Shown here: piece by piece, positions 4,708 to 27,642 of the stretch
How the letters are laid out: each line of letters opens with the position of its first letter
How positions within the stretch are numbered: position 1 is the stretch's first letter
Assembly (NCBI RefSeq): GCF_023008545.1
Contig: NZ_CP095397.1
Location: forward strand, 806,001-870,000
Length of the DNA: 64,000 nt
Direction of reading: 5' to 3'
Source: Natribaculum luteum
Lineage (GTDB): Archaea; Halobacteriota; Halobacteria; Halobacteriales; Natrialbaceae
Made by a program: the position numbers and the translations under genes
The notes under the pieces: generated by a model
The model's database searches: none
What the model saw: the letters and a program-made list of their open reading frames with translations, nothing else
Told to the model about the DNA's origin: nothing

Positions 4708-4730
4708 GCCTCGGGGTCAAGTCCCGAGGC
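4708..4730. repeat. Right-end hairpin of the TnpB element
   Basis: Perfect 8-bp stem (GCCTCGGG / CCCGAGGC) around a 7-base loop. It contains the tnpB stop codon, which lies in the loop. IS200/IS605-type elements end in such a hairpin, which is also the 3' end of the guide (omega/re) RNA. The guide segment would be the bases just past the element, below position about 4700 on this orientation. Confidence 0.65.
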
Positions 4731-5966
4731 TTCCCGTTTCGATGACGCGACTTGCAGGAACCGATGAGGTTGAACCTCCGTCGGTTTCCACAGCGGTCGC
4801 AGTCTCCCCGGGCGTCGATTCGGCCTGTCCCAGACCTAGTTGGTGAATACCGCGAGAAAGAACGTTGTACGACGCATTAGCGTCCCTGTCCGCTTCGAAC
4901 CCACAACTCGGACAACTGTGTTTCCTGACCCACAACGGCTTGTCCGTCTCCACGCCACACTCCGCGCACTCTTTGGTTGTGCCACGCGGATTCACTTGAA
5001 CGACGCGTGTGCCGTACAGGTCGCCCTTGTACTCCAGCATCTCGATGAACCTACGCCACGCGGCGTCCTGTTTGTTGCGAGCGTTTCCGTCTTGCTGGAG
5101 CAGCCCTGAGACGTTCAGGTCTTCCACGAACACGGCGTCATACTCTTTGACTATCCACGTCGTCAACTTGTGTTGGAAGTCCTCGACCTTCCGCTTGATT
5201 CGACGCTTGACTTTGGCGACCGCTTGTCGTTGTTTTTCCCAGTTGTTACTGCCGTGTTCCTTGCGGGAGAGACTACGCTGTTCCCGTCGCAATCGTTCGT
5301 ATTCCTCGGAGAGATCGAGCCAGTCCACACTGTCGCCGTCTGACGTGTAGATGTAGCTGTTGATACCGAGGTCGATCCCCACGCAGTCTTCGGCGGTCAC
5401 GTCGTCCGCGTCGGGTTTCTCAGGGAGCGCATTATCTTCGATTTCGAGGCCGAACGTGACGTACCACTCACCCGTTGTCTCTTTCTTCAACGTGACTTCT
5501 TTGATAATGGCGTTTTCGGGGATGGAACGGTGGTATCGGATGGGGATGTCACCAATTTTGGAGAGCCAGAGCGTAGCAGTTCGACCACTCGTGTCTTTGA
5601 GTTCGAAACCAGACTGCGAATACGTCATACTCTGGTATTCTCGCGGTGACTTCCACTGCAGTTCACCGACCTTGTACCCCGCATCTTTCTTCTTGGAGAG
5701 GGTGCTGAGGTTGTTGTAGAAGCGTTCGACAGTCTTCTGCAACGCCTTCGAGTGAACCTCGGAAAATATGGGCCACTCGTCTTTCCACTCGGTGAGTCGC
5801 TTCTGGTGTTGGTATGCGAACCGATATTGTCCTCGTCGGTGTCGAGCGTGTTGTATTCGTATCGGGTGTGATTGTAGGCTTGGCGGTGGATGTCGATGTG
5901 GCGTTCGGCTTCCGCAGTCACACCTGTTCGGTCGGGATAGGCGCAGAAGCGGTAGTCGTACCACAT
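4717..5966 (-). pseudogene. tnpB: IS200/IS605-family TnpB (RNA-guided nuclease), frameshifted
   Basis: Two reading frames together give a haloarchaeal TnpB of about 416 residues. The first starts at ATG 5966 (MWYDYRFCAYPDRTG) and the second picks up at AYQHQKRLTEWKDEW. The switch is near 5818 and fits loss of one base. Downstream everything is intact: RuvC acidic residues in GIDLGIN, FVEDLNV and DRDANASYN, and a zinc ribbon CAEC...CPSC between the last two. TnpB cuts DNA guided by the RNA made from the element's end and helps the element persist. No TnpA transposase is present, so this is an IS1341-type solo element. The single clean lesion suggests recent loss or a sequencing error. Confidence 0.88.
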
Positions 5967-9598: not shown

Positions 9599-11146
9599 TT
9601 AGAGCTTCCTATTAATGAGTCCGTGGTACTGCTCCATCTTGTCGAGCGGTTGTGGCGACGTGAGGTAGCTCACGACCACGAAGAGACCGAAGTTGACGAC
9701 GGTCGCAACCAGAATGCCTGGAACGAGTGGAGTTACGTATGGGTTCGGAATCAGCTGCAGCTGGAACAGAGCGAGAAGTACCGTTCCAACTGCTGGCGAT
9801 ACAATGGCCGCTTCCGTGGACGCGCGTGGCCAGGAGACGGCGCCGAGCAACAGCGGCAGCAGTTGGATCGATACTGCCACGACGAACAGCGCAAGGGGGG
9901 TTATCAGGTTTGAGTACAAGAGCGCGCCGGCGACACCGGCGAGCATCGTGACGATGATCACGACTCTGTTCAGAAGCAGTTCCTCATCTTCGGAGATGTC
10001 CGGACTGATAAATGTTCTGATAAAGTCGCGCGAAACGGTCGCTGCCAACACGTGTGCGTACGAGTCCGTCGTGGAGACGATTGCAGCCAAGATGCCGACA
10101 AGGAACAAAGCGGCGAGACCGAACGGCATCACGTCGAACGCGAGAAGTGACGACACCGTATCCGGATTTGTTCCCTCTGGCAGCACGGTCCGACCATAGA
10201 TTCCGATGAAACTCGTACCGAAGACGTATATTAGCGTGAGAACACCGACGATCATCGCGGCGACTTTGGCGAAGTTCCGTTCAGTGTCGACAGAGTACAT
10301 ACGGATCCATCCCGCGGGTGAGAGTAAGGTATTGCCGACCGAGAACAGAGCACCGACGATCAGGATGACCTCTGGCGTGAACAGGCCGGTTACTCCGGGT
10401 GCCGTCGTGTATCCGGCGCGGGAATCGCCGAGGCTAGTGAAGATTTCGCCAACGCCGCCGGCGTGGCTGACGATGAATACGCCGAATGCGCCGAGAAGGA
10501 TCGAAATCAGCGCCCCGTTGAAGGTATCGAGGTACGCGATTCCACGCATCCCTGTACTGGCAAGGTGGATTGTGACTACGAAGGCAAGTGCGAGAACGCC
10601 CAACTCGAAGGAAACAACCCCGCCCGTAAGGATCGTCAAAATCAGCCCACCGGCGAGCAGTTGAGCGACGATATACGTCGTATTGAAAGCAACGCTCGCG
10701 AGCACTGTGTAAAGCCGGACCGTGTCGCTCTGATAGTAGTCACCCAGCAGGTCGCCTGGGGTCTGAAGATCATGCTCCTTCCCGACGACCCACATACGGC
10801 GGCCGAGGTACCAGACTGCCGGTGCAGTCACCGCGTAGCCGGCGAGAATCATCGCGATGAATGAAAAGCCGACTGAATATACCGTACCTGGGAATCCGGC
10901 CATGCCGACGCCGCTCAGCACCGTCGCAACGAGAGTGAGCGAGGCGACGACCCATCCCAGCCCTCGAGAGGCAACGATGTGGTCGGACAGACTGTCCGAG
11001 TACCCTCGTCTTGCGAAATGTGTGATGGCGAGGAACATGACGACGTAGCAAGCTAGAATACTGAGTGAAAGCGACAGGTTTGTCGAAATCGTCTCGGCGA
11101 GATCCGGAGGGAGCGCCTGTATCGGAACGAGTGATCCGCTACTCAT
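9599..11146 (-). CDS. Sodium:solute symporter (SSS family)
   Basis: 515 residues with about 13 hydrophobic segments. The SSS hallmarks are visible: an N-terminal helix followed by YSDSLSDHIVASRGLGW, GVGMAGFPGTVYSVGF in early helices, and GILAAIVSTTDSYAHVLAATVSRD in a middle helix, where the Ser/Thr/Asp residues help form the sodium site. It imports an organic solute, probably a carboxylate, with Na+. It is preceded by and overlaps (8 bases) the gene for a small two-helix membrane protein in the same operon. Location beside ring-dioxygenase genes suggests an aromatic acid or breakdown product as substrate; this is inference. Confidence 0.85.
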   Translation of the reverse strand: MSSGSLVPIQALPPDLAETISTNLSLSLSILACYVVMFLAITHFARRGYSDSLSDHIVASRGLGWVVASLTLVATVLSGVGMAGFPGTVYSVGFSFIAMILAGYAVTAPAVWYLGRRMWVVGKEHDLQTPGDLLGDYYQSDTVRLYTVLASVAFNTTYIVAQLLAGGLILTILTGGVVSFELGVLALAFVVTIHLASTGMRGIAYLDTFNGALISILLGAFGVFIVSHAGGVGEIFTSLGDSRAGYTTAPGVTGLFTPEVILIVGALFSVGNTLLSPAGWIRMYSVDTERNFAKVAAMIVGVLTLIYVFGTSFIGIYGRTVLPEGTNPDTVSSLLAFDVMPFGLAALFLVGILAAIVSTTDSYAHVLAATVSRDFIRTFISPDISEDEELLLNRVVIIVTMLAGVAGALLYSNLITPLALFVVAVSIQLLPLLLGAVSWPRASTEAAIVSPAVGTVLLALFQLQLIPNPYVTPLVPGILVATVVNFGLFVVVSYLTSPQPLDKMEQYHGLINRKL

Positions 11147-11453
11147 ACTTCGCCTCCGTTTCGTCGCCGAGGTCAGTCATGCGTTCTGACGGTTCACTCT
11201 TGGTGAGCACTACGTAGAGACCAAGAATTACTAGCGCCGAGACGAGCACGATCGTCCACATCATTACGGGAAGACCCGCGATCAACTGATCTCGGGTGCC
11301 GACAAATTTCATCCCGAGATACGCGAAGATCGTAGTGCCCGTAAAGTAGATGAGCATTATCTTCTCCGTCGAGCGCGCTGAGATGTTGTATCTGTCTGGA
11401 ATCTCACTTGGGTCTGGACGGTCTACTGACCGCCATTTTTCGCTCCAAGGCAT
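11139..11453 (-). CDS. Small membrane partner of the symporter
   Basis: 104 residues, with a soluble N-terminus (WSEKWRSVDRPDPSEIPDRY) followed by two transmembrane helices (about 33-52 and 60-82) and a charged tail. Small two-helix proteins are often encoded just before SSS transporters and act as accessory subunits. It starts the operon: a TATA-like box lies about 25-33 bases upstream. Confidence 0.65.
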   Translation of the reverse strand: MPWSEKWRSVDRPDPSEIPDRYNISARSTEKIMLIYFTGTTIFAYLGMKFVGTRDQLIAGLPVMMWTIVLVSALVILGLYVVLTKSEPSERMTDLGDETEAKYE

Positions 11454-11979: not shown

Positions 11980-12807
11980 TTAGTCTGTCACGTCCTGCGT
12001 GATGTACTCGACTGCCGATCGACTAACTTCGGTAATGCCACGGACGGAGCGGCCGAGGTCGGCGCGGACGACCGATCCAGTTATTGGTCGGGAGTCTGTC
12101 TCGGATGCCAGAAGCACATAGGCGCCGGTATAGTCGGCGGCCGACGGCGTGATCTCGAGCGGATGGTTCGTAGGATCGAACTTATCGGCGGAAACGACGC
12201 CGCGGTGGCCGCCGAGTGATTCGGTACCTGATAGATCTGTTGGGACAAACCCCGGCGCGACGGCATTAACTCGAATCGTCGGTGCGAGCTCGAAGGCGAG
12301 CTGCCGAACTAGACCGAGGACAGCGTGCTTGGCCGGGACGTAGAGAATGCCTCCGCCGTCGGACCCGAAGCTCGCCTGCGAGGCGGTGAATACTATTCGT
12401 CCGTCTGTTTCGATTAGTTCGGGCAGCGCCGCCTTTGCACCCATCATGTATCCAAGGACGTTCACGCCGAACAGTTCGAAGAAGCTCTCTTCGAGGTCCT
12501 CACCTGACAGCTCAGGCAGGGACGTATTCTGATCAAATACACCCGCATTTCCGACGAACACATCAAGTTTGCCGAAGGCGTCAACTGTCTCCGAGACCGC
12601 CCGTTTGTTGTCCGCCAATGACGTTACGTCTCCCGCGACGGTGACGACATCGTCGCCAAAGTCCGACCCGACGTCCTCGAGTCGGTCCTCGTTGATGTCC
12701 AGTACGCCGACCGATGCGCCCTCGTCGATGAACCGTTCGGTCACCGCACGTCCAAGCCCGGATCCACCGCCAGTGACCAGTGCGACCTGATTGTCAAGCC
12801 AACCCAT
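11980..12807 (-). CDS. cis-Dihydrodiol dehydrogenase-like SDR (BphB/HcaB type)
   Basis: Short-chain dehydrogenase of 275 residues. The NAD-binding glycine motif is TGGGSGLG; NAG is present (GNAGVF); the catalytic set is Ser in TASQASF followed by Y-x-x-x-K (YVPAKH). The stretch GGGILYVPAKHAVLGLVRQLAFELAP and the final GVRGI region resemble biphenyl/phenylpropionate cis-dihydrodiol dehydrogenases, which rearomatise the ring after Rieske dioxygenation to give a catechol. The ATG at 12807 gives the normal N-terminus; an in-frame TTG at 12864 is unlikely. It is downstream of a VOC gene (53-base gap) and divergent from the dioxygenase genes it would serve. Confidence 0.8.
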   Translation of the reverse strand: MGWLDNQVALVTGGGSGLGRAVTERFIDEGASVGVLDINEDRLEDVGSDFGDDVVTVAGDVTSLADNKRAVSETVDAFGKLDVFVGNAGVFDQNTSLPELSGEDLEESFFELFGVNVLGYMMGAKAALPELIETDGRIVFTASQASFGSDGGGILYVPAKHAVLGLVRQLAFELAPTIRVNAVAPGFVPTDLSGTESLGGHRGVVSADKFDPTNHPLEITPSAADYTGAYVLLASETDSRPITGSVVRADLGRSVRGITEVSRSAVEYITQDVTD

Positions 12808-12860
12808 CGATTCCAAGGCTGGTCGGTCACCACTAATACTTACCGGTGACGTACCCCTGA

Positions 12861-13304
12861 TCAATCACTGATCGAGTTGTCGGCGGGTGGCTCGTACAGT
12901 TCGACGTAGTTTCCGTCAGGGTCTCGAGCGTAAGCGATATCCGCGCCGTTACCGACGGTTCGGGGAGAATTCACGAACTTGACTGCCGGCGTGAGTTCCT
13001 CGTAGAGGCCGACTACGTCGTCAACAGTGATGCAGATGTGGGCAATCCCGACGTCGTGACCTGCTGCTGTCTCGTGAACGACGTCGTTTTCGGGCGCATC
13101 GTAGTCGATGAGTTCAATCGCGAAGCCGCCGGCGTCGAGAAAGACAATCTCGCCCTCAACACCTTCGACACCGACGATGTCGCTCTGGACCTCACTGATC
13201 GGGAACCGTTTATCGACCTCGAATCCGAGCCGATCCCGGTAGAACTCGAGGGCACTCTCCATGTCCTGTACGTTCAGTCCGTAGTGTGTCGCCTGTCCTA
13301 TCAT
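12861..13304 (-). CDS. VOC-superfamily (glyoxalase/extradiol-type) protein
   Basis: 147 residues with the paired beta-alpha-beta-beta-beta modules of the vicinal oxygen chelate fold. Candidate metal ligands are H7 (ATHYGLNV), E in AIELIDY, H in AHICITV and E in YVELYEP. Single-domain members include glyoxalases, epimerases and ring-cleavage enzymes, so the exact reaction is open. It is first in a two-gene unit with the dihydrodiol dehydrogenase and divergent from the Rieske operon, suggesting a role in the same pathway. Confidence 0.75.
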   Translation of the reverse strand: MIGQATHYGLNVQDMESALEFYRDRLGFEVDKRFPISEVQSDIVGVEGVEGEIVFLDAGGFAIELIDYDAPENDVVHETAAGHDVGIAHICITVDDVVGLYEELTPAVKFVNSPRTVGNGADIAYARDPDGNYVELYEPPADNSISD

Positions 13305-13470: not shown

Positions 13471-14844
13471 ATGTCTCACGACATAGAGCAGTCACTGTCC
13501 GCAAGCGAGTCCGCGCAGGAACGGACTCGGCGGATACTCGACCGCATGGAGAAAACGCTTGAACGGGGTGAGGTTCCGATGAAGATTCTCAATGATGAGG
13601 ACATCTATCAGCGAGAGCTCAATCGGATATTCGCTCAGACGTGGGTGTACGTCGGCCACGAATCGGAGGTTCCTGAGCCGGGCGATTACCGCCAGCGGAC
13701 AATCGGAGAGGACCCGTTTGTCTTCGTCCGCGACGAAAATGGCACGCTCCGCGTATTGTTCAACAGCTGTCGTCACCGCGGCGCGAACGTCTGCCGGGCT
13801 GAGAAGGGGAACACGACCCATTTTCGCTGCCCCTATCACGGCTGGACCTACCAAAACACGGGTGACCTCGTCGGCGTCCCCCAGAAGGGAGATGGGTTCG
13901 ACCACCTCGACGCTGACGAGTACGGCCTCCGCGAGGCGGCGAACGTCGACACATATAACGGACTAGTCTTCGCCTGTATCGCACCAGACGCGCCGCAACT
14001 CGAAGAGTATCTCGGCGGTGCGACGTGGTACCTCGACATGTACTTCGACCTGATTGACATGGAAGTTATTGGCGACCCGCAGCGGTGGGTCGTCGACGCC
14101 GACTGGAAAACGCCGACGGAGAACTTCTACGGCGACAATTACCACGTGCCGATGGGCCACAAGTCGGCGATCGACGTGGGAATCGGCAGCGAAACAGCCA
14201 CTGGCGAGGAAGAGAGCGAACTGTATGGTATCGCCGACTGTGATGGACACGCTTTTAGTATCTACCAGATCGACTCTGAGAAGCCGATGTTCTGGGGCCA
14301 CCCCGAAGATGTCGTCGAGACGTTCAACCACGATGCTCTCGACGACGACCAGCACGAGGTCGCACGCAGGTCGGGCGTGACTCTCGGGACGATCTTCCCG
14401 AACCTCTCATTCATTTTCCTCGGCGGCCGCGACGATCCGAACAAGGATCCCGTCGGGACGTTCTGTCTGCGTCAGTGGCAGCCCCGTGGCCCCGGCAAGA
14501 TGGAGGCTTGGAACTGGATTCTAGCACCGAAAGACGCTCCGGCGGAATACAAAGAGCGAGTCTACGAAGTCGGAATGTCGACGTTCAGCGCCGCGGGTAA
14601 CTTCGAGGCCGACGATATCGGCATCTGGGACGGAATTGATGACGCGGCGGGCAGCGTGTTCGTTGAGCAGACCGAGGCTACGACGCTGTTCACGATGGGA
14701 CGCGGCGAGAACGCCGCGGCGACCATCGACGACGACTGGGCGGGGCCGGGAACGGCCTACGCGGATGGCGGGCTGACCGACGAGAACCAACTGGACTTCT
14801 ACCGAACGTGGTACGAGACGATAACGACCGAGGGGGCTGAATAA
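13471..14844 (+). CDS. Rieske aromatic ring-hydroxylating dioxygenase, alpha subunit
   Basis: 457 residues. The Rieske [2Fe-2S] site is C100-R-H102 and C120-P-Y-H123; the mononuclear iron site is D222-N-Y-H225 and H230 in the C-terminal catalytic domain. It adds both atoms of O2 to an aromatic ring to give a cis-dihydrodiol. The start is ATG 13471; an upstream in-frame GTG would add four residues. The beta subunit follows after one base. No ferredoxin or reductase gene is nearby, so electrons must come from proteins encoded elsewhere. The substrate cannot be read from the sequence; benzoate-, biphenyl- or heteroaromatic-type acids are all possible. Confidence 0.92.
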   Translation: MSHDIEQSLSASESAQERTRRILDRMEKTLERGEVPMKILNDEDIYQRELNRIFAQTWVYVGHESEVPEPGDYRQRTIGEDPFVFVRDENGTLRVLFNSCRHRGANVCRAEKGNTTHFRCPYHGWTYQNTGDLVGVPQKGDGFDHLDADEYGLREAANVDTYNGLVFACIAPDAPQLEEYLGGATWYLDMYFDLIDMEVIGDPQRWVVDADWKTPTENFYGDNYHVPMGHKSAIDVGIGSETATGEEESELYGIADCDGHAFSIYQIDSEKPMFWGHPEDVVETFNHDALDDDQHEVARRSGVTLGTIFPNLSFIFLGGRDDPNKDPVGTFCLRQWQPRGPGKMEAWNWILAPKDAPAEYKERVYEVGMSTFSAAGNFEADDIGIWDGIDDAAGSVFVEQTEATTLFTMGRGENAAATIDDDWAGPGTAYADGGLTDENQLDFYRTWYETITTEGAE

Positions 14845-14845
14845 T

Positions 14846-15391
14846 ATGCAGGACGAACAGGTTCAGCAAGCCACGCTTCGGCTCGAGTGCGAGGAGTTCC
14901 TCTATCACACGGCGGAGTTACTCGACGACCGCCGACTGAGCGAGTGGCACGATCTTGTCACAGATGACATCGAATACCGCATACCGATTCGAACGACGCG
15001 CGAACGGTCCAAACCCACGGAGTTCAGTAAGTCAGCTTTCCACATGAAGGAGGACTGGGGGACGCTCAAGGTACGAACCAACCGGATGGCAAGCGATTTC
15101 GCTTGGTCAGAGGATCCTCCATCCCGGACTCGTCGTCAGGTCGCAAACGTTCGTATAACTGACGTCAGCGACGACGAAATCGACCTCAAGAACAATCTGG
15201 TTGTCGTTCGGTCGCGGAAAGCAGAAACCGATCCCGACATCCTCTCAATGGAGCGTCACGATACGCTCCGACGTGACGAGGACGGATACGCGCCCGATTG
15301 GACGGAAAGGAAGGGGCTAAAACTCGCCCGACGAACCGTGTTGCTCGACCACACGGTCATCCCGACCGACTCGCTTTCAATCATCCTATGA
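14846..15391 (+). CDS. Ring-hydroxylating dioxygenase, beta subunit
   Basis: 181 residues of the SnoaL-like beta-subunit fold: an N-terminal helix (RLECEEFLYHTAELLDDRRLSEWHDLV), DDIEYRIPIR, then RTRRQVANVRI and a strand-rich C-terminus. The beta subunit stabilises the alpha3beta3 hexamer and can shape specificity. Immediately after alpha, and overlapping the next gene by ATGA. Confidence 0.88.
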   Translation: MQDEQVQQATLRLECEEFLYHTAELLDDRRLSEWHDLVTDDIEYRIPIRTTRERSKPTEFSKSAFHMKEDWGTLKVRTNRMASDFAWSEDPPSRTRRQVANVRITDVSDDEIDLKNNLVVVRSRKAETDPDILSMERHDTLRRDEDGYAPDWTERKGLKLARRTVLLDHTVIPTDSLSIIL

Positions 15392-15843
15392 CCCCGACAC
15401 CGACGTCAACGGATTTGATCGAAGTGACGGACGGCGATCGAACGATCGAACTCGAGATGCTACGGACGCCGACCGGGGAACGGCTGGTAGTCCGCAGCAC
15501 GAGCGACGAGACTCGCGTAGACGCACTAGCACTGGAGAGCCTCACATGGCAAAACGACGTCTTCTTCGAGGAGCTAACGGCAATTCCCCACGAGGACGGC
15601 GAGGACACGACCGAGGCATCGGATGAGATACAGATCAGTAACGAATATACGGTTGTCCGGCTTCAGACACTCGAGACGACGGCCGGACCACGAGTGGCGA
15701 TCGAGTCCCCGAAACTTGGCTACTCTTGCCGTCTTAGTCCAGCGGAACTTGACGCGATCGCGCACGAGCAGATCGAACTCTTCTCCGACCTGCTCGCGAC
15801 CCCGTTCGGTCCCGAAACGGACCACCACCACGGCATCCACTAA
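15388..15843 (+). CDS. Third protein of the dioxygenase operon, unknown function
   Basis: 151 residues from the ATG that overlaps the beta-subunit stop. It is strand-rich and acidic, with no cysteine pairs, so it is not a ferredoxin; the only clear feature is a His-rich end (ETDHHHGIH). No known family is recognised. The tight overlap implies co-translation with the dioxygenase, so an accessory or assembly role is plausible. Confidence 0.65.
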   Translation: MTPTPTSTDLIEVTDGDRTIELEMLRTPTGERLVVRSTSDETRVDALALESLTWQNDVFFEELTAIPHEDGEDTTEASDEIQISNEYTVVRLQTLETTAGPRVAIESPKLGYSCRLSPAELDAIAHEQIELFSDLLATPFGPETDHHHGIH

Positions 15844-15890: not shown

Positions 15891-16784
15891 CTACAAGTTA
15901 TCGACTCGACGGACGAACTCAGCAGTAGCATCTGCGACGGTATCCTCCGTGCCGGTGAAGAAGTGATCAGCTTCGATCGGGCGGATCTCGACCAGCGAAC
16001 TTCGCTCGGCAGTGTTGGCAATCTCCTGCGCTTCGTCGGGCGTAACGTTCCGGTCAGTCGCGTGCGGGACCAAGAGCAGCGGTTTCTCGATCTTTGGCGT
16101 CCAGTCGATCGTGGCACACTTGCTCTCTGGGGAGCGGTAGGAAAGGAACGACTCGGCCGTCATCGGGATGTACTCTATCCCACCATCGACGGGGCGCGGC
16201 AGGGCAACGAGTTCGGTACCCCGTCCCTCCTCGACGAGGTCGCGAGCCTCTTGCACGAACTCTTTGTAGGCGGTATCGGGATCGTCGGACACCGCCTCGA
16301 AGTAGCTTCGCGTAGAACGCTCGCGGATGTCCGCGAACGGCGCGGCCAGTACGACCGCGTCGACAGCGGGATCATTGTGTTTACCCTGATAGTATGCAGC
16401 TTCGGTCGCGCCCAGGCTGCGCCCCCAGACGACGATCCGCTCGGCACCGCGGTCGGTCGCCCACTCGACGGCGCCGGCGATGTCTCGATCAATCTCGGCG
16501 AAGTCGGAGGTCTCGTATCCCTTCCCGCTGTTTCGCTTATTGATCGACACACAACGCATCCCCCGTCTCGCAAGCGGGTAGGCGATGGGCGTAATACCGG
16601 CTCCTAGAGCGAACCCGCGAAGCCCGTGCAGGAAAATGACGCAGGTCTCGTCCCCGCCGAACGTCGTCGATTCGCCGGTAATTTCGAACCCGTCCATCCG
16701 TTTGCCGTCCTCGCTCTTGTAGTTGATCGCTCGAAGCGTTACGTCGTCTGGCGTCGGCTCCATCACTGGCATATCAGAGCACAT
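15891..16784 (-). CDS. Alpha/beta hydrolase
   Basis: 297 residues. Nucleophile elbow WGRSLGA (GxSxG), oxyanion-type FLHGLRGFA, and a likely catalytic His in EADHFFTG at the C-terminus. The fold matches dienelactone-hydrolase or prolyl-oligopeptidase-like esterases. In this operon, after a ring-cleaving dioxygenase, it could hydrolyse a ring-opening product (a C-C or amide/formyl bond), but the substrate is not readable. It follows the ThDP enzyme gene with a 43-base gap. Confidence 0.8.
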   Translation of the reverse strand: MCSDMPVMEPTPDDVTLRAINYKSEDGKRMDGFEITGESTTFGGDETCVIFLHGLRGFALGAGITPIAYPLARRGMRCVSINKRNSGKGYETSDFAEIDRDIAGAVEWATDRGAERIVVWGRSLGATEAAYYQGKHNDPAVDAVVLAAPFADIRERSTRSYFEAVSDDPDTAYKEFVQEARDLVEEGRGTELVALPRPVDGGIEYIPMTAESFLSYRSPESKCATIDWTPKIEKPLLLVPHATDRNVTPDEAQEIANTAERSSLVEIRPIEADHFFTGTEDTVADATAEFVRRVDNL

Positions 16785-16827: not shown

Positions 16828-18489
16828 CTACCAGATGGTTCGAGAGACGTACTCGGCGGTCGGATCGACTACGATGTCGAGGACGACGTGTTCGTCTGCG
16901 GCGAGGGCCTCCTCAAGTGCCGGTCGCACATTAGTCGGATCCTCAACGCGGACGCCTCGAGCGCCCATCGAGTCAGCCATCGTCGCGAAGTCGACCTGCG
17001 GGATATCGGTGGCGATTTCGGCGTGGCCATCCCGCTGCTGGTAGTTCCAGATCATTCCATACTTGGCATCGTTCATCACGATCGTGACGGCGTCGGTGCC
17101 GGTGGCGACCGCCGTGACTAGCTCCATGTTACACATGAGCATGCCACCGTCTCCGATCAGATTGACCACCTGCCGATCCGGATCGACTAGTTTCGCGGCG
17201 TTCCCTGCGGGGACGGGAAACCCCATCGAGTCGTACAGTCGGGAGTGCTGGAAGCTGTTCGGCGTGCGGTACTCAAACGCGTCGTTCGGCCAAGCACCGC
17301 CAGCGGCGCCCGCGTCCCCGGTGAGAATTACATCGTCATCGGCCACGTCGCGAAGCGCCGTCATAATCACTAGCGGGTGGATCGGCGTCTGGTCAGCAAC
17401 TGCAGCCGCATACTCCTCGATCTCCTCGTCGACCTGCTGGGCTTCAGCGCGGACCGACTCGCGGTAGTCGGCGTCGGTCGAACCGGCGTCGGCAAGCACA
17501 TCGGCCGCCGCAGGCAGGATCGTCGTCAGGTCGCCACCGACGACGGCCGTGGCGTCGGTCTGAGGAAATTCCGACTGACCAGCGTGCAGATACGCGATGT
17601 CGACGTCGTCACTCGTTCGATCGCCGAGAACCACCGCTTCGTGAGAGCTCGGTCGAACGCCCAGCGAGAGGATGGCATCGGCATCGGCCAGCGCTGCAAC
17701 GGCTGCCGGATGGTCAGCCATCCCGACAGTCCCCGCGAACAGCTCGTGGTCGTTAGGAAACGCGTCCGGGTAGTGTCGCGGGCAGACGACTGGACAGTCG
17801 AGCGCCTCCGCAATTGCGACCGCGTCGCTGCTCGCGAAAGCGCGGAGAACACCCTTACCGACGTAGAGGGCACGGCGATCAGCCCGTTCAAGCACCTTGA
17901 GCGCGTCCGCTGCCGCGTCGGGCGACGGCGGCGTGTTCGTGACGTGGCTCCACTCGAACGCCGACTCAGGAATCGCGACCGACTCCATGAGGATCTCTTC
18001 GTCAATGCCGACGAACACTGGGCCAGGTCGCCCGCTTGTCGCCACGTCGAACGCGCGGTTGAGCGTTTCGGGGACGCGTTCGGGATCGTGTACCTGTGTG
18101 CTCCACTTGGTTGCGGGTTCGAACGCCGTCTCGAGGAAGTGCTGGTCGTCGACGCCATGAAGCGACTCTGTGGGTGCGTCTTCGGGGAGAACAGCGCTCA
18201 CGAGGATCATTGGCGACGCAGCCGTGTACGCTTGGGCGACGCCGGTAAGAGCGTTCGTTCCGCCGGGTCCGGCGACAGTAAGTGCAACGCCCGGCTCACC
18301 GGTGAGTCGTCCTCTGGTATCGGCCATCACTGCTGCGTTGTACTCGTGGCGGGCCGTGATCACATCGGCACCACGGCTGTTAAGACCATCGGCGACATCG
18401 ACCGTCTGGTTGCCGAGCAGTACGTACGCTTCGGTAACCCCGTTTTCGACTAGAACACGGGCTACTGCATCTCCGCCTGGTTTGTCCAT
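16828..18489 (-). CDS. ThDP-dependent enzyme, acetolactate synthase/benzoylformate decarboxylase-like
   Basis: 553 residues in the three-domain order of the family. The N-terminal ThDP-activating Glu is in ARHEYNAAVMAD; the ThDP/Mg motif is GDGGMLMCNME...MNDAKYG near residue 440. The group covers decarboxylation or ligation of 2-keto acids. No regulatory subunit gene is present, so true acetolactate synthase is less likely. Set between the NicX-like dioxygenase and the hydrolase, it may process a 2-oxo acid formed during ring breakdown. Start chosen at MDKPGGDAV; two further residues upstream are possible. Confidence 0.82.
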   Translation of the reverse strand: MDKPGGDAVARVLVENGVTEAYVLLGNQTVDVADGLNSRGADVITARHEYNAAVMADTRGRLTGEPGVALTVAGPGGTNALTGVAQAYTAASPMILVSAVLPEDAPTESLHGVDDQHFLETAFEPATKWSTQVHDPERVPETLNRAFDVATSGRPGPVFVGIDEEILMESVAIPESAFEWSHVTNTPPSPDAAADALKVLERADRRALYVGKGVLRAFASSDAVAIAEALDCPVVCPRHYPDAFPNDHELFAGTVGMADHPAAVAALADADAILSLGVRPSSHEAVVLGDRTSDDVDIAYLHAGQSEFPQTDATAVVGGDLTTILPAAADVLADAGSTDADYRESVRAEAQQVDEEIEEYAAAVADQTPIHPLVIMTALRDVADDDVILTGDAGAAGGAWPNDAFEYRTPNSFQHSRLYDSMGFPVPAGNAAKLVDPDRQVVNLIGDGGMLMCNMELVTAVATGTDAVTIVMNDAKYGMIWNYQQRDGHAEIATDIPQVDFATMADSMGARGVRVEDPTNVRPALEEALAADEHVVLDIVVDPTAEYVSRTIW

Positions 18490-18620
18490 ACACACTCCTC
18501 ACACTGAATCAGATTAAAATTTCCTGTAGAAGAATGCGTCGTCGATATCGGCGACTTCACAGATGCAGCTGTTGATGCCAAGCTGCCAGTGTCTATGGCA
18601 CGTCCATATTGCGAAACCGT

Positions 18621-19676
18621 TCAGTCGACGACGACCTCACCCTCTTCAACGACCGGCTCGCCATCGAGGTACACGCTACAGTTCTTCTGTGCGATATCGT
18701 AGTGACACGGTGCGTATCGGTCTTCGTGTACGTTCGGGCCGGTACTCCAGAGCATGTTACCTTCCCAGACACGGCCCTCGCTAGCACTGACACCTGTTTG
18801 ATCGGGCGCTCGGTCATGCAGCGCCATGTTGTAGAACGTTCCATTGGGGTTGAGCCCCCAGCCGAAGTGGCTCGTCGCCCAGACGTCCGGGTCATCGTAG
18901 CTCTCGAGGTGGCCTCGCATCAACTCGGCGTCGCCGCCATCGCCGTTGATCTCAACGATGTAGTTGTCCTCGACGATGCATTCAATGGCGGATCCGACGT
19001 AGTCTGCGAATGGAACGACATTGTAGTCGCTTGGTGCGATGACGATCGTCCCCTCGACGTTCGACGGATAGTTTGAGACCATATTCTGGCCCCAGACGTC
19101 CCACTTACCGGGCTCGTCGACGAACCCGTAAGAGTCGAAGGCTGTGTCGGGTTCGACCTCCATCGTTACGTCCGTACCGTACTCGGAAGTGATATGCATC
19201 TCGTCAGCCTCGGCCAAGAGATCACGGTGACGCTGGACACGCTCTTTGACGCGCTGAGCTTCCTCAGGTTCCCAGGGCATCAGCCGACGGAGATAGTGCG
19301 GTTCGCGGGCGCCGACGCGAAGGATTCGGGTACCGGCATCGCGGATCTCGCCGCGCTCGGGCACATGGATGAATCCTTCGAGCGTGAAGTCGAACACCAT
19401 ATCGGCGTGCTTACACGCTGCAACTGGCCCGTCTGGTAGGCGCAGCGTTCCGCCCTGCCCCTCGGATATCTCGGGACTGACGGAGTTGCGCCCATACTCC
19501 GGTACCTGTACCTCGAATACGTCCGCATCGTGGTCCTTGGCCGCAGCGAAACAGGCGCCAATGAACTCGCGCGGGCTCTTCGCGTCGGTTACCAAAGCGA
19601 TGGTCTCATCAGACGATACTTGACAGTGTTCCATCTGTCGACGGAACAACGGCACTAATAGCCCAGCTTCTTCCAT
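18621..19676 (-). CDS. NicX-like 2,5-dihydroxypyridine 5,6-dioxygenase family protein
   Basis: 351 residues, nearly the length of Pseudomonas NicX (350), in the fold shared with M29 aminopeptidases. Key blocks align by eye: SHFGWGL with H270, MALHDRAPD, MLWSTGPN and PCHYDIAQ with H325 and D327. From what is known of NicX, the iron ligands are two His and one Asp with a final His-x-Asp, and the same arrangement and spacing is kept. NicX opens 2,5-dihydroxypyridine to N-formylmaleamate. The start is ATG 19676; an open frame upstream to 19811 has no promoter support. First gene of a leftward operon with a ThDP enzyme and a hydrolase. Family assignment is good; the actual substrate is unproven. 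Confidence 0.72.
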   Translation of the reverse strand: MEEAGLLVPLFRRQMEHCQVSSDETIALVTDAKSPREFIGACFAAAKDHDADVFEVQVPEYGRNSVSPEISEGQGGTLRLPDGPVAACKHADMVFDFTLEGFIHVPERGEIRDAGTRILRVGAREPHYLRRLMPWEPEEAQRVKERVQRHRDLLAEADEMHITSEYGTDVTMEVEPDTAFDSYGFVDEPGKWDVWGQNMVSNYPSNVEGTIVIAPSDYNVVPFADYVGSAIECIVEDNYIVEINGDGGDAELMRGHLESYDDPDVWATSHFGWGLNPNGTFYNMALHDRAPDQTGVSASEGRVWEGNMLWSTGPNVHEDRYAPCHYDIAQKNCSVYLDGEPVVEEGEVVVD

Positions 19677-19862: not shown

Positions 19863-20687
19863 ATGGTTCGTTCAATCGCTATCGTTGGCTGTGGAACGAT
19901 TGGAACTGAAATCGCACGCGCAATCGCAAACGGGACGATCTCGGTCGATCACACCGTCGTTTACGGTCACCATCCGGATCGTATTGATGTGCTCCGCGAT
20001 CAGTTCGATCCCGCGGACCGACCGCAAATCGCGGACGTACTTGCTGAGGTGTTCGAGACGGATCTCGTCATCGAGGCCGCCGGTCAAGCGGCAGTCGACG
20101 ATATCGCTGTCGACGCGCTCAACGCAGGGTGTGACTGCATGCTAATGAGCGTCGGCGCGCTCGCGGACGAACGATTACACTCGGCGGTTCTCAAGGCGGC
20201 CGAGAACGGCGACGGACAACTCTATCTCCCATCCGGCGCGATCGCCGGGCTCGATGCGATCAAGGCTGCCGCGCTTACCGGAGAGTTGGAAACGGTATCG
20301 CTACGGACAACGAAACCACCGGCAGGTCTTGAGGGAGCGCCGTACATCGAGGAGAACGATGTCTCTCTCAACACGATCGAGGAACCGTCTGTCGTCTTCG
20401 AAGGGTCAGCAAGCGAAGCTGCGACAGCGTTTCCATCCAACATCAACGTCGCGATGGCTCTCAGCCTTGCGGGGACCGGTCCCGAAGAGACGACCGTCGA
20501 AATCGTCGCCGACCCGTCCGAGGGGAACAACGTCCACCAAATCACGGCCGAGGGCGGAATGGGACGAATAGAGACGACAGTTCAGAACGTACCGTCTCCG
20601 ACAAACCCGAAGACGAGCTATCTCGCTGCGATTTCCGCCATCGAAAAGCTACGGGGACTCGACTCGTCGGTCAATGTCGGAACATGA
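19863..20687 (+). CDS. L-aspartate dehydrogenase family protein (NadX-like)
   Basis: 274 residues. N-terminal Rossmann motif GCGTIG with an R later in the nucleotide site; conserved central blocks DLVIEAAGQAAV, LPSGAIAGLDA and FPSNINVAMALSLAG, diagnostic of the DUF108 aspartate dehydrogenase domain; C-terminal NPKTSYLAAISAI. It oxidises aspartate to iminoaspartate with NAD(P), or the reverse. In NAD synthesis it feeds quinolinate synthase, but no nadA or nadC is present, so a catabolic role (handling an amino or imino acid from a nitrogen compound) is plausible. Divergent from the NicX-like operon. Confidence 0.85.
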   Translation: MVRSIAIVGCGTIGTEIARAIANGTISVDHTVVYGHHPDRIDVLRDQFDPADRPQIADVLAEVFETDLVIEAAGQAAVDDIAVDALNAGCDCMLMSVGALADERLHSAVLKAAENGDGQLYLPSGAIAGLDAIKAAALTGELETVSLRTTKPPAGLEGAPYIEENDVSLNTIEEPSVVFEGSASEAATAFPSNINVAMALSLAGTGPEETTVEIVADPSEGNNVHQITAEGGMGRIETTVQNVPSPTNPKTSYLAAISAIEKLRGLDSSVNVGT

Positions 20688-20779: not shown

Positions 20780-21664
20780 GTGATCGAGATCCCGTTCCAG
20801 ATATTGCTCGCGCTCGGAACGGCATTTGCGTTCGCGACTTCGTCGGTACTCGTACGTTTCGGCGTCGAACGGTCAGAACCGATAGCGGCGTTGTTCGTGA
20901 CTGTCACCGTTAATGTCGTCGTGCTTTGGGCGGTCAGTCTCGTCCTGTACGATGTGACGATCGATATCTGGGCGTGGCGCTACTTCATCCTCGCGGGCAT
21001 GTTCGCTCCGGTCCTCGGTAGGCTCTGTAACTACGTCGGACTCAGGAGAGTCGGCGTGAACCTGACGGTTCCGATCAGCAACTCCAATCCGCTGGTATCA
21101 GTTGTTCTCGCTGTACTGTTGTTCGGAGAAACGCTTTCGCCGCGGGGCCAAGCTGGTGCCTTCGCTGCCATCGCCGGCGGGATTCTGCTCACATCGGCAA
21201 ACCGCGACGAGGCTGACGGGATCGGCGTTCGATACCGTGACTTGTTGTTTCCGGTTACCGGCGCACTCATCTATGGAAGCGTTCAACTCTTGCGGAAGGC
21301 CGGAATGGACCTCGTTCCGGCGCCAGCGGTTGGTGCAGCTGTAAATCTCACGACGTCGTGGATCGTAGTTATCGTCTTCCTTGTGGCTGTTCCGAGTCAG
21401 CGCGACCGACTGTTGATTCCCCGTGACGACCTCCGGTACTTCGCTCTAGCAGGGTTCGCCTCAAGCGTTGGGCTCATATGCCTGTATGCCGCGTTGCTCT
21501 CCGGGACAGTGGTCGTTGTAACGCCAATCCTCAATGCGTCACCGCTGTTCGCTCTGGTACTAACGTATGCGTTCTTACGCGATCGAGAGCCGTTCTCGAC
21601 ACAGGTACTCGCCGGGACGACTCTGGTCGTCGCCGGCGTCGGACTGCTGACGACAGTGCCGTGA
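20780..21664 (+). CDS. DMT-superfamily (EamA) transporter
   Basis: 294 residues, ten hydrophobic segments in two EamA halves; each half ends with the usual pattern (VPISNSNPLVSVVLAVLLFGE and VVVTPILNASPLFALVLTYAF). It probably exports or imports a small metabolite. GTG start with GAGGT nine bases upstream. 92 bases after the aspartate dehydrogenase gene, so likely co-transcribed. Confidence 0.82.
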   Translation: MIEIPFQILLALGTAFAFATSSVLVRFGVERSEPIAALFVTVTVNVVVLWAVSLVLYDVTIDIWAWRYFILAGMFAPVLGRLCNYVGLRRVGVNLTVPISNSNPLVSVVLAVLLFGETLSPRGQAGAFAAIAGGILLTSANRDEADGIGVRYRDLLFPVTGALIYGSVQLLRKAGMDLVPAPAVGAAVNLTTSWIVVIVFLVAVPSQRDRLLIPRDDLRYFALAGFASSVGLICLYAALLSGTVVVVTPILNASPLFALVLTYAFLRDREPFSTQVLAGTTLVVAGVGLLTTVP

Positions 21665-21726
21665 AAACTGGCCAGGAATTCTGCGTAACCAGAACACTCA
21701 ATACAGTCCAGTATCTCCACTGGGGT

Positions 21727-22302
21727 ATGGTCGTAGAGAACATGGGTTTAGACCACGTTGCGATCAAAGTACGCGATCTCGAACAGACGGTCGACTTCTA
21801 TACAGACGTGCTGAATATGGCCGTCTCCGACCGGATCGGCGATGCGGTAGCGTTCTTGCGGACGCCGGCAGTTGCCGAACAGTCCCAGCATCACGAAATG
21901 AACGTCACCCAGTACTCAGACGAGGAACTCGCGACACTCGAAGAGCGCGGTGAACTTGAGCTCAATCTACATGAGTTCGAGGAAAACCTCCCCGAGGATG
22001 GACCACCGATGTTGCCGACGACCGGCCCAATTTATCACATCGCATTCGAAGTCCCCGATTACGAAGCGATCACCGACGCAGCCGAGGCCTTGGAGGAGCG
22101 AAATCATCCGATCTATCGAGGGCCAGGTCGTCACGGTCCCGGTAACAACATCTTCCTCTATTTCCCCGATCCTGACGGATATCCAATCGAGTTGACTGCG
22201 AAGATGGAGGAAACACCGGAGGTCGGCGGGCGTCCACCGAAGCGATGGCCGCAGACACCGGAAACGTGGAATGTCTGGCGGAAGACCAAGGACCTCGAGT
22301 AA
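21727..22302 (+). CDS. VOC-family protein, extradiol ring-cleavage dioxygenase-like
   Basis: About 191 residues from ATG 21727 (MGLDHVAIKV at 21742 is an alternative start). Two VOC modules: H in GLDHVAIKVRDLEQTVDFYTD, H in IYHIAFEV, and E in GYPIELTAKME, a typical 2-His-1-Glu metal set. The extended C-terminus (PPKRWPQTPETWNVW) is like catechol 2,3-dioxygenase-type proteins. In this cluster it is the best candidate to cleave a catechol produced by the Rieske enzyme and the dihydrodiol dehydrogenase, but a glyoxalase role is not excluded. Confidence 0.72.
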   Translation: MVVENMGLDHVAIKVRDLEQTVDFYTDVLNMAVSDRIGDAVAFLRTPAVAEQSQHHEMNVTQYSDEELATLEERGELELNLHEFEENLPEDGPPMLPTTGPIYHIAFEVPDYEAITDAAEALEERNHPIYRGPGRHGPGNNIFLYFPDPDGYPIELTAKMEETPEVGGRPPKRWPQTPETWNVWRKTKDLE

Positions 22303-22417: not shown

Positions 22418-23200
22418 TTATTGATTCGAAGCCATTTGCATGTTGATCTCGGTGACGTTTGCCTTATCACGAACGAGTTCCGGAAGTTCCTCTCTGAACC
22501 GATCATCAGACATGCGACTCGTCGGACCGCACACTCCGATTGCGGCTACAACCTCGCCGCTCGGCGCGTGGATCGGCGCGGCGACACATCGCAGTCCGCG
22601 GGTCCGTTCGCTTTGGCTGAACGCGATTCCGCGTTCGCGAATCTCTGCCAATTCCTCAAACAACGTGTCCGGGTTTGTGATCGTGTTCTCCGTTCGTTCG
22701 GGTAATCCGTGTTTGTCGATAATTTTTTGGACCGTAGATTCAGGCATGTGAGCGAGGATTGCCTTACCCTGGGACGTATAGTGGAGGTATTCTCGTTGGC
22801 CAGGTCGGATTGGCGTCTCGATTGCGTTCTCACCTTCTGATTTGGCAAGATACACGCCGTGTCCCTGCTCTCGTACGATAAGACGGGCCAGTTCACCGGT
22901 CTCGTTGGCAATTTCATCGAGCGAATCCTGCGCGAAGTGGTACACCTGATTTTGGTGTTTGACGTATTCACCGACTTCAAGTAAGAAGAGGCTGAGTTGA
23001 TAATGACCATTGGTTTCCGTCACGATGTCGTTTCTCTTCAACGTATTTAGATAGGTGTGCGCCGAGCCTTTAGTCATGTCCACGTGATCCGCGATCTCGG
23101 TTACGCCCCCACCATCAAGTTCCCGTAACGCCCTGACGATTCGACACGCCTTCTCGACTGATTGTATAGTACGTCCAGCCTCATTCGGTTTCTCGGTCAT
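22418..23200 (-). CDS. IclR-family transcriptional regulator
   Basis: 260 residues: N-terminal winged helix (IQSVEKACRIVRALRELDGGGVTEIADHVDMTKGSAHTYLNTL) and a C-terminal effector domain (GLRCVAAPIHAPSGEVVAAIGVCGPTSRM). Likely controls the neighbouring aromatic catabolic genes and itself: a palindrome abuts its TATA box (23231-23247). Convergent with the VOC gene. Confidence 0.9.
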   Translation of the reverse strand: MTEKPNEAGRTIQSVEKACRIVRALRELDGGGVTEIADHVDMTKGSAHTYLNTLKRNDIVTETNGHYQLSLFLLEVGEYVKHQNQVYHFAQDSLDEIANETGELARLIVREQGHGVYLAKSEGENAIETPIRPGQREYLHYTSQGKAILAHMPESTVQKIIDKHGLPERTENTITNPDTLFEELAEIRERGIAFSQSERTRGLRCVAAPIHAPSGEVVAAIGVCGPTSRMSDDRFREELPELVRDKANVTEINMQMASNQ

Positions 23201-25594: not shown

Positions 25595-27642
25595 GTGCTG
25601 CTGCGAATACCCCGAAATCCGTGCACGAGATTCGCGTCTGTCGGTTGGAATCGGTCCAGAATACAGGCCGACCAAGGAATCACGACCGCCACTCACCACC
25701 CGTGAGTGGCGGTCTGGTGGGCGAGAACGGTATAATCAGTCGATTTAGACAGTGATACCTCTTGGGAAGGGCAAGCACAGAGCGGGATCTACAGCAATGC
25801 GCTCACCTCCCTCCGGAGGAACGCACGAAACCGCGGGGCGGTCACCCGCGGTTTCGTGCGAAACTCGATGACATCAATCAACGTCTGGACGAGGAAGTCC
25901 ACGAGCAGCCACAGATCGTACAACAGGACTGCAAAGCCGAAGTGGAACAACCGGACAGAGAAGTTAGTCGACGTCGTCCACGGTGCGAACTCCTTGATCT
26001 TGCTATAAGCTGTTTCAATCCCGCCTCGGCGTCTGTAGCGATTGATCTGCTTTTTCGTCAAGCGCCGGTCAAGACCAATCTCGTCGTTTACGTCGAGATT
26101 GGTCGCAAATACCTGCACCTCGTCGCGGTCCTCGTCTGGCGGGAGTCCGACCAGCGTTGTCTCGGCTCTGGTGTTGGGGACACAGTGTTTTACCGGCCCG
26201 TACACCGCGTGCTCGGATTTGACTGTCACTTGCTTTTGTCCCTCCACATCTTCGTCCATGCGCGCGATGAACCGCTTGACGCGGTCATCGCGCGGTGCCG
26301 GGATCACGTAGAAAAGGTCTCGCTGTTCGAGCACCGAAAATACGTCCGTGGCGTAGAATTCCCGATCAGCGTAGAGGCGCCGCGTATGAACCCGACAGAC
26401 GTCGCTGACGTGGTCGACGAGTCGGCGAACAACGTCGCCGACTCGGTAACTCTTGTCCTCGCCAGGATAGCTCTCTGGATCGTGATAATCGGCGTGCCCA
26501 ACTGGAAGCATCGCAGCTGCGAAGTGAACGTTGTCTCCAACAACGTTCGCGGTTGCGAACTTGTAGCACCAGTCGTAGGACTTGTCCTTTGGCGCACCCT
26601 GGACACGTACGAGTTCCTCACGCTCCCCGTAGAAAGCGACGTAGGTTATGTCGATCGACAGCATGACAGGCGTCTCGAACTCCAAGCGAGGCTTGGCCCG
26701 CGTCAAGACGCGGGCCGCGCCCCGGTTGACCATCTCCGCGATTTGTGTCGGTGAAAGGTCCTTGATCGCTTCCAGAAGCGTCTCTCCACTCGGTCCATCC
26801 TCGTAGAAGGGATCGTCGAGATCCGGGTCAGGATTGACGAAATCGCCGTAGGTTTCGGCACCGCCGTTAGCGGCGGTGCCTGTCACCCCGAGACAGGCCT
26901 CAAGCATCAGGAGTTCCTCGTCGTCGTAAACCGGGTCATCAGGCCGATCAAACTCGAAGGCGGGCAACACGACTGTCTGGAGTTCGTCGAGGAGGTCACG
27001 TGTTTTTCCCCGAATGAGACGGTTGACTGTGCGCTTCGAGGAGCCTATCGGCTCCTCCGAAGCGCTGTCTTCGTACGGTGTCCCGATGGGACTGCCGCGT
27101 TCAGCGGCCAACGCTTGGATCTGACGAGTAGCGGTCTCGATCGTCGATTGGAGGTCCGCAAACCGGTTAGTCTGTGCCCGAGAGATCGTGCTTCGTGAAG
27201 GTGTGTCATCGGGATTGAAGCCAAGAGCGTCAGCAAGTTGAGGGTCACTGTCGAGCGTCCGATGGAGCCAGCCATCGGACGCGTCTTCGAGTTCCTTCAG
27301 GAGGATCGCCCGGAGCATCGGTTCGAACGGTTTAGAGTCGTGCCAATGGGGAATGGGATCAGCACGGCAGTATTGGCTGACGTCGAGGTGAGTGACCAAC
27401 TCGGCCGCAGAGGTCGTCTTGTCGACGACCTCGGCGGCTTGCTTGGTTAGAGGCAGCCACCCGCCTGAGAGTGGACCGATATCTTGTAGGCGCTCGTCAA
27501 CTGATCGTTGAGTGCGGCTGTCATCAGCAGCCGCAACATGATCTGACCAGTTGTTTGTCACAGTGGGGGACGAATCGTCCCCCACCGGTCAGTTAATCGA
27601 TGTTGAGATTCCGTGCACGGGTTCTGTCATTCGTAGCTACAG
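25595..27642 (-). mobile_element. IS4-type insertion sequence, copy 1
   Basis: About 2.05 kb, with imperfect terminal inverted repeats (left GTGCTGCTGCGAATACCCC; right, complemented, CTGTAGCTACGAATGACAG, both followed by CCGTGCACG). One transposase gene on the minus strand. A 12-bp-stem hairpin (25685-25696/25702-25713) follows the transposase stop. An almost identical element sits directly beside it. Confidence 0.75.
25789..27585 (-). CDS. IS4-type DDE transposase, copy 1
   Basis: 598 residues from GTG 27585; in copy 2 codon 9 is ATG, so translation may start at 27561. DDE residues: Asp in MLSIDITYVAFYG (about 312), Asp in RLYADREFY (about 413), and the IS4 signature Y-(2)-R-(3)-E-(6)-K in RYRRRGGIETAYSKIK near 534. 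Intact, so possibly active. The gene is unusual: it carries at least a dozen perfect or nearly perfect inverted repeats along its length, with arms of 8-16 bp and loops of 1-10 bases. Examples: 25822-25837/25845-25860, 26073-26083/26094-26104, 26418-26428/26435-26445, 26695-26704/26707-26716, 26857-26866/26871-26880, 27255-27265/27272-27282, 27563-27573/27575-27585. The last covers the start. Confidence 0.88.
   Translation of the reverse strand: MGDDSSPTVTNNWSDHVAAADDSRTQRSVDERLQDIGPLSGGWLPLTKQAAEVVDKTTSAAELVTHLDVSQYCRADPIPHWHDSKPFEPMLRAILLKELEDASDGWLHRTLDSDPQLADALGFNPDDTPSRSTISRAQTNRFADLQSTIETATRQIQALAAERGSPIGTPYEDSASEEPIGSSKRTVNRLIRGKTRDLLDELQTVVLPAFEFDRPDDPVYDDEELLMLEACLGVTGTAANGGAETYGDFVNPDPDLDDPFYEDGPSGETLLEAIKDLSPTQIAEMVNRGAARVLTRAKPRLEFETPVMLSIDITYVAFYGEREELVRVQGAPKDKSYDWCYKFATANVVGDNVHFAAAMLPVGHADYHDPESYPGEDKSYRVGDVVRRLVDHVSDVCRVHTRRLYADREFYATDVFSVLEQRDLFYVIPAPRDDRVKRFIARMDEDVEGQKQVTVKSEHAVYGPVKHCVPNTRAETTLVGLPPDEDRDEVQVFATNLDVNDEIGLDRRLTKKQINRYRRRGGIETAYSKIKEFAPWTTSTNFSVRLFHFGFAVLLYDLWLLVDFLVQTLIDVIEFRTKPRVTAPRFRAFLRREVSALL

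Follow-up and report, generated by a model that had tools for sequence, protein, structure and literature searches.

The 2,5-dihydroxypyridine (2,5-DHP) 5,6-dioxygenase NicX of Pseudomonas putida KT2440 (EC 1.13.11.9; PDB 7cn3, 7cnt, 7cup), which opens the ring of a product of vitamin B3 breakdown, holds its iron through His265, Ser302, His318 and Asp320, each of which is essential, with Arg293 orienting Asp320 (PMC7910607). Glu177 bonds N1 and O1 of the substrate and His189 bonds O1; alanine variants at these positions have 2.7% and 6.9% activity, respectively, and the E177A/H189A double variant has none (PMC7910607). Our sequence search matched a single solved structure for this kind of iron dioxygenase, that of NicX (7cn3). 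The 2,5-DHP dioxygenases of the NdpE, PicD and HpdF type, from nicotine, picolinate and 2-hydroxypyridine clusters, belong to the same superfamily and have the same iron site, as checked here for NdpE. The M29 aminopeptidases (AmpT, PepS, AmpS) have overall fold ancestry and a His-x-Asp motif in common with the protein described here.

The window, a 64,000-nucleotide stretch of the genome of the salt-loving archaeon Natribaculum luteum, contains an ORF at positions 18621 to 19676 on the minus strand that is open over 351 aa, with a start Met conserved in close orthologues, and encodes a predicted Fe(II) ring-opening dioxygenase of the NicX superfamily. Differences from three orthologues (83-92% identity) are mostly at third codon positions with dN/dS values of ~0.03-0.08, and this is therefore a working gene under purifying selection. 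The single significant PDB sequence match is nearly full length to 7cn3 (E 3.6e-50), and none of the Pfam-A and NCBIfam models, including those for M29, matches the protein at E 0.001. An AlphaFold (AF2) model, with a pLDDT of 82.8, is matched by Foldseek to NicX with a TM of 0.83-0.84 versus ~0.55 for PepS and AmpT, with values for the M29 aminopeptidases within ~0.5-0.57. The alignment used as input had 32 rows, and most of the distant ones were M29 proteins, yet the match to NicX is better; an earlier model from 12 close orthologues had a pLDDT of 52.9 and was discarded. In a 39-row tree, whose long joining branches call for caution in reading branch lengths, the M29 set is split off with 100/100 support. 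The window protein lies in a clade of its own (98/96), which falls outside the bacterial clade of 14 rows (98/98) to which NicX belongs. Sequence, fold, tree and metal ligands together place the window protein in the NicX superfamily and not among the M29 peptidases, an assignment considered and rejected based on metal residues, tree and fold. The preference of the initial annotation for a NicX-like enzyme over a generic M29 peptidase is borne out, the phylogeny with NicX and M29 proteins placing it outside M29.

All four iron ligands of NicX are kept in the alignment, as H270, S311, H325 and D327, with R302 corresponding to Arg293, and His105, which is essential in NicX, is retained as His104. 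The His and His-x-Asp metal set noted in the initial annotation is therefore intact, no ligand being lost on proper alignment, and is joined by the equivalent of Ser302, the fourth ligand. In M29 homologues from related haloarchaea, the positions of His265 and Ser302 are occupied by Glu and by Ala (in one case Gly). The window protein resembles NicX in fold (TM 0.83), iron ligands, Arg293, His105 and length, and differs from it by an L104 to I103 replacement, by small insertions near window protein residues 100-101, 122, 135-139, 219 and 295-296, by belonging to a separate clade and by having no nic genes around it.

The substrate pocket is different. Glu177, His189 and Glu308 of NicX are replaced by S182, V194 and H317, respectively, and these replacements are invariant across the clade, for which we compared the window protein, nine haloarchaeal orthologues and the protein from Metallosphaera javensis (49% identity). 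S182 and V194 are located within the motif YGF-x-D-x-PG-K/R-WDVWGQNM, which aligns unambiguously, and as judged from this alignment they occupy the places of Glu177 and His189. Both NicX residues are kept in Pseudomonas BYT-5, Sphingobium (NdpE), Sagittula, Azospirillum, Aminobacter, Mesorhizobium, Pantoea, Rhizobium brockwellii and Peribacillus, as in NicX itself, and the annotated neighbors of these relatives include Asp/Glu-racemase-type (NicE-like), isochorismatase-type (NicF-like) and alpha/beta-hydrolase genes. NdpE, 33% identical to the window protein, differs from it in having Glu177 and His189 and in being encoded with a deformylase, a maleamate amidase and a maleate isomerase. The Variovorax WDL1 relative has Asn at position 189, and relatives from Rhizobium daejeonense, Ochrobactrum and Thioclava, which have Gln at position 177, are encoded in clusters of other composition or without annotation. 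The Ser/Val pair is found in no bacterial enzyme from a 2,5-DHP cluster that was compared. NicX-type 2,5-DHP chemistry, as anticipated in the initial annotation, does not fit these invariant replacements; with both substrate-binding residues replaced and a tree position outside the bacterial 2,5-DHP enzymes, 2,5-DHP is an unlikely substrate. In its simplest reading, the sequence predicts an iron dioxygenase that would act on a ring without the 2-oxo group held by Glu177 and His189. KpiC, a 3,4-dihydroxypyridine dioxygenase, was considered as a clue to the substrate but is an amidohydrolase and provides no help.

The gene content also differs from that of the bacterial nic pathway. A homologue of the maleate isomerase NicE was not detected at E 0.001 in the N. 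luteum genome or in those of six other haloarchaeal carriers of the NicX-like gene, and a weak match (28%, E 1.9e-5) was found only in Metallosphaera. These results are from a direct homologue search, used after the Pfam Amdase model matched no control genome and the null result obtained with it was dropped. With a NicF homologue as query, the matches in the N. luteum genome were generic isochorismatase-family proteins, 26-27% identical and encoded away from the cassette described below, and neither the MoCo nicotinate hydroxylase NicAB nor the FAD monooxygenase NicC is present among the window cassette genes or in the annotated haloarchaeal cassettes. The absence of a maleate isomerase, first noted from the window, extends to the whole genome, and the proposal of a route other than the bacterial nic pathway holds, with no NicE homologue in the genome and no NicAB or NicC in the cassette; the pathway is not the bacterial nic route. 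Searches of open-access papers, which leave most subscription journals outside, revealed no description of this cassette, of a haloarchaeal nicotinate or pyridine route, of a pathway combining a Rieske enzyme with a dihydroxypyridine, or of a NadX-ThDP-Rieske cluster.

The NicX-like gene is part of a cassette of ~14 kb. At its left are genes on the minus strand for a sodium:solute symporter (9599..11146), a small membrane protein (11139..11453) that overlaps the symporter gene, an SDR resembling the HcaB/BphB-like cis-dihydrodiol dehydrogenases (11980..12864; 331 bits on NCBIfam PRK06200 versus a cut-off of 330, and 277 bits on BphB_TodD), and a glyoxalase-fold protein, VOC1 (12861..13304; Pfam and NCBIfam). 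On the plus strand are genes for a Rieske ring-hydroxylating dioxygenase alpha subunit (13471..14844), recognized by Pfam, NCBIfam, PDB matches and the motifs CxH...CPYHGW and D-x2-H-x4-H, for its beta subunit (14846..15391; Pfam and NCBIfam), and for a conserved protein with no assigned function (15388..15843) that overlaps the beta subunit gene. The PDB entry nearest to the alpha subunit is a naphthalene dioxygenase, with biphenyl dioxygenases also scoring high, and both subunits score far under the NCBIfam equivalog cut-offs. The minus strand then encodes an alpha/beta hydrolase (DUF1749/Abhydrolase; 15891..16784) with a GRSLG nucleophile elbow and no sequence similarity to the N-formylmaleamate deformylase NdpF, and a ThDP-dependent enzyme (16828..18495) of the AlsS/benzoylformate-decarboxylase-like type, with Pfam TPP N, M and C domains and conserved motifs, whose best PDB matches are catabolic acetolactate synthases (E ~1e-60). 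As first described, the NicX-like gene heads this same-strand run, the gaps to and between the two genes being 125 and 43 bases. An aspartate dehydrogenase gene is indeed adjacent, 186 bases away, but does not face the NicX-like gene; this NadX-like L-aspartate dehydrogenase (19863..20687, plus strand) is divergently transcribed, and exceeds the cut-offs of PRK13304 (286.5 versus 267 bits) and TIGR03855 (223.8 versus 206.55 bits). It is followed by plus-strand genes for an EamA transporter (20780..21664) and an extradiol-dioxygenase-like protein, VOC2 (21703..22302), with a His-His-Glu triad, and by a minus-strand gene for an IclR-family regulator (22418..23200; Pfam).

A gene pair for a PD-(D/E)XK nuclease and a UvrD-like helicase is located near the cassette (775-4607), and on a Salinigranum rubrum plasmid (L030, 1076-6510) the same cassette has a similar pair immediately upstream. 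To the right are two near-identical transposase-like genes of 598 aa in tandem (25789-27585 and 27845-29641), and further transposase-like and integrase-like genes are present at 4717-5964, 60850-61671 and 62092-63213; the transposase- and integrase-like genes around the cassette suggest an island. The window also contains a second catabolic block (31763-59239) with two AMP-ligase-like genes, a thiolase, another ThDP enzyme, a symporter, alcohol-dehydrogenase-like genes, an OCD-like gene and a dipeptide-type ABC transporter.

The NicX-like gene is present in 10 of the 391 haloarchaeal genomes sampled, which represent nine genera from several families. All haloarchaeal loci inspected that carry an orthologue, including three on plasmids, have most of the cassette genes around it in reshuffled order, and this patchy distribution together with plasmid carriage suggests that the cassette has moved horizontally. 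Full-length NadX (E < 1e-30) occurs in 11 of the 391 genomes, namely in all 10 carriers, always on the contig with the NicX-like gene, and in one of the 381 others; the probability of this overlap is 5e-19 if genomes are treated as independent, which related genomes are not. The Rieske alpha subunit and the alpha/beta hydrolase are likewise encoded in all 10 carriers on that same contig, the hydrolase by a single gene per genome that is always on the cassette contig, and a genome from the window's own genus that lacks the NicX-like gene also lacks NadX, the Rieske alpha subunit and the hydrolase. There is variation, as in one carrier (G057) with no close VOC2 near the NicX-like gene and a Rieske alpha subunit only 49% identical, and in at least one carrier an ABC transporter with an NMT1/THI5-type binding protein takes the place of the adjacent EamA gene. 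Among 300 Thermoproteota genomes sampled, Metallosphaera is the one carrier. Near its NicX-like gene are genes for Rieske alpha and beta subunits, a two-domain VOC protein, a ThDP enzyme (36%), a creatininase and amidohydrolases, and NadX and the alpha/beta hydrolase were not found in this genome, so NadX is not obligatory for the clade. With a conserved cassette and relatives in two archaeal phyla, the aromatic-catabolism setting initially proposed is upheld. A plasmid search revealed no bacterial copy of the whole cassette and, beyond the three haloarchaeal plasmids, only NicX-like matches of up to ~36% identity. The designation archaeal clade holds for the collections searched, in which bacterial chromosomes were covered by one pattern-based scan with the window protein that detects close relatives only.

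Related gene clusters are found elsewhere. A second archaeal NicX-like type with Gln177 and His189 is encoded in Natrarchaeobius (L062; G327:C9) and on a Natribaculum longum plasmid (L033), in both cases with Rieske and SDR genes. In Natrarchaeobius the gene is beside those for MoCo hydroxylase subunits, CoxG, Rieske alpha and beta subunits, an SDR and a CN-hydrolase, and this cluster looks like a haloarchaeal N-heteroaromatic pathway. A Rhodococcus pyridinivorans plasmid (L059, 9349-15368) similarly combines NicX-like, Rieske, SDR, MoCo hydroxylase and CN-hydrolase genes, and on a Variovorax WDL1 plasmid (L084, 798-6984) Rieske-type oxygenases are encoded near a NicX-like gene and a MoCo hydroxylase; in these two bacterial clusters Rieske-type oxygenases apparently replace NicC. 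The Natrarchaeobius, N. longum and Rhodococcus clusters support the idea that Rieske-NicX systems generally degrade N-heteroaromatics. A deep branch of the NicX superfamily, with Thr at position 177, is encoded on an Ensifer adhaerens plasmid (L077, 5980-7029) beside acyl-CoA-dehydrogenase-like, glutamine-synthetase-like and flavin reductase genes. A Caballeronia cluster (L058; Rieske-SDR-cupin-hydrolase-IclR-ThDP-NadX-ALDH-VOC) has Rieske, SDR, alpha/beta hydrolase, ThDP, NadX, VOC and IclR genes in common with the cassette, but identities are low, cupin and ALDH genes are present and there is no NicX-like gene. As NadX is also encoded close to other catabolic genes where a NicX-like gene is lacking, it is not alone a marker of a pyridine pathway. 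The BphAB and HcaEF/HcaB modules, of the biphenyl/3-phenylpropionate type, likewise have Rieske alpha and beta subunits and an SDR, whereas in the cassette the Rieske proteins score far below the equivalog cut-offs and are coupled to NicX-like, ThDP and NadX genes.

We consider the window protein to be, with a probability of about 0.6, an Fe(II)-dependent ring-opening dioxygenase of the NicX superfamily that belongs to a separate archaeal clade and has a substrate other than 2,5-DHP. A true 2,5-DHP 5,6-dioxygenase with a compensating pocket, supplied with 2,5-DHP from a pyridine carboxylate by the Rieske and SDR enzymes, would have the same iron site and His105 and would account for NicX being the best structural match, and the Variovorax WDL1 and R. 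pyridinivorans clusters document that Rieske and NicX genes do occur together. This is nevertheless improbable given that E177A/H189A NicX is inactive (PMC7910607), that the clade-invariant Ser/Val pair is absent from the bacterial enzymes of 2,5-DHP clusters, that the clade falls outside that of bacterial NicX, and that the haloarchaeal carriers tested have no maleate isomerase and the annotated haloarchaeal cassettes no MoCo hydroxylase. Less probable still is an M29-type peptidase or amidase that acts on a pathway intermediate; the superfamily fold is common to both (TM ~0.55 to PepS and AmpT) and bacterial relatives are often annotated as leucyl aminopeptidases, but His and Ser replace the M29 Glu and Ala, the tree separates the two groups with 100/100 support and no M29 Pfam model is matched.

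Alternatively, a biphenyl-type upper pathway resembling BphABCD might come first, and the enzyme would then open a dihydroxylated carbocyclic ring free of nitrogen or, in a bicyclic compound, the second ring, with NadX catalyzing a side reaction. The cassette does encode counterparts in function to BphA (Rieske alpha), BphB (SDR), BphC (VOC2) and BphD (alpha/beta hydrolase), the Glu177/His189 pair, which recognizes the pyridine lactam, is no longer present, and an Agrobacterium plasmid cluster joins a related Rieske gene to VOC and gentisate-type lower-pathway genes. We regard this as unlikely, although less so than the 2,5-DHP alternative, as the NicX-superfamily members with substrate-indicating gene neighbors act on pyridines, NadX is present in all haloarchaeal carriers, and the alpha/beta hydrolase is not closely linked to C-C hydrolases. 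The occurrence of NadX in every haloarchaeal carrier and the MoCo hydroxylase genes in the sister clusters argue for, but do not prove, a ring that contains nitrogen.

Returning to a NicX-superfamily dioxygenase with a substrate other than 2,5-DHP, the window enzyme most likely opens a different hydroxylated ring, one that probably bears nitrogen. We infer dioxygenase activity in the clade, nitrogen in the ring and the following order of steps. Uptake of the substrate would be via the symporter or EamA, or by the ABC transporter found in other carriers, and the Rieske alpha/beta enzyme and SDR would convert the ring to a diol, the usual product of such a pair. The NicX-like enzyme would bind the hydroxylated ring at iron held by H270, S311, H325 and D327, with R302 orienting D327 and H104 in the role of NicX His105, and would insert O2 and break a C-C bond beside the hydroxylated carbon. 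VOC2, with its His-His-Glu triad, is a second ring-cleavage candidate in the cassette and may share, or own, ring opening. The alpha/beta hydrolase would then hydrolyze the ring-opened product, the ThDP enzyme would cleave or decarboxylate a 2-oxo acid and NadX would handle an imino or amino dicarboxylate. If the substrate is a pyridine without a 2-oxo group, deformylation would give an imine or enamine rather than maleamate, which would suit an aspartate-dehydrogenase-type enzyme and require neither an amidase nor a maleate isomerase. Such a substrate would fit the loss of Glu177 and His189, the presence of NadX, and a cassette with no MoCo hydroxylase, maleamate amidase or maleate isomerase. 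More tentatively, an archaeal pathway may exist in haloarchaea and a member of the Sulfolobales in which a Rieske/cis-diol-dehydrogenase system feeds a NicX-type dioxygenase of new specificity, a pyridine-type ring is opened without prior 2-hydroxylation and, in haloarchaea, the nitrogen passes via an imino acid to NadX.

The type of iron enzyme is already known; what is new is the pocket and the gene partnership. Caution is needed when similarity is used to label such proteins as 2,5-DHP dioxygenases or leucyl aminopeptidases. A clade present in two archaeal phyla that has kept its iron site, exchanged both substrate contacts and is co-inherited with a cassette provides a clean handle on substrate change within the superfamily. 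The prediction is directly testable as the near relative Natrialba chahannaoensis, with a NicX-like protein 92% identical to that of the window, is in culture, and the cassette suggests an uncharacterized archaeal pathway for aromatic compounds.
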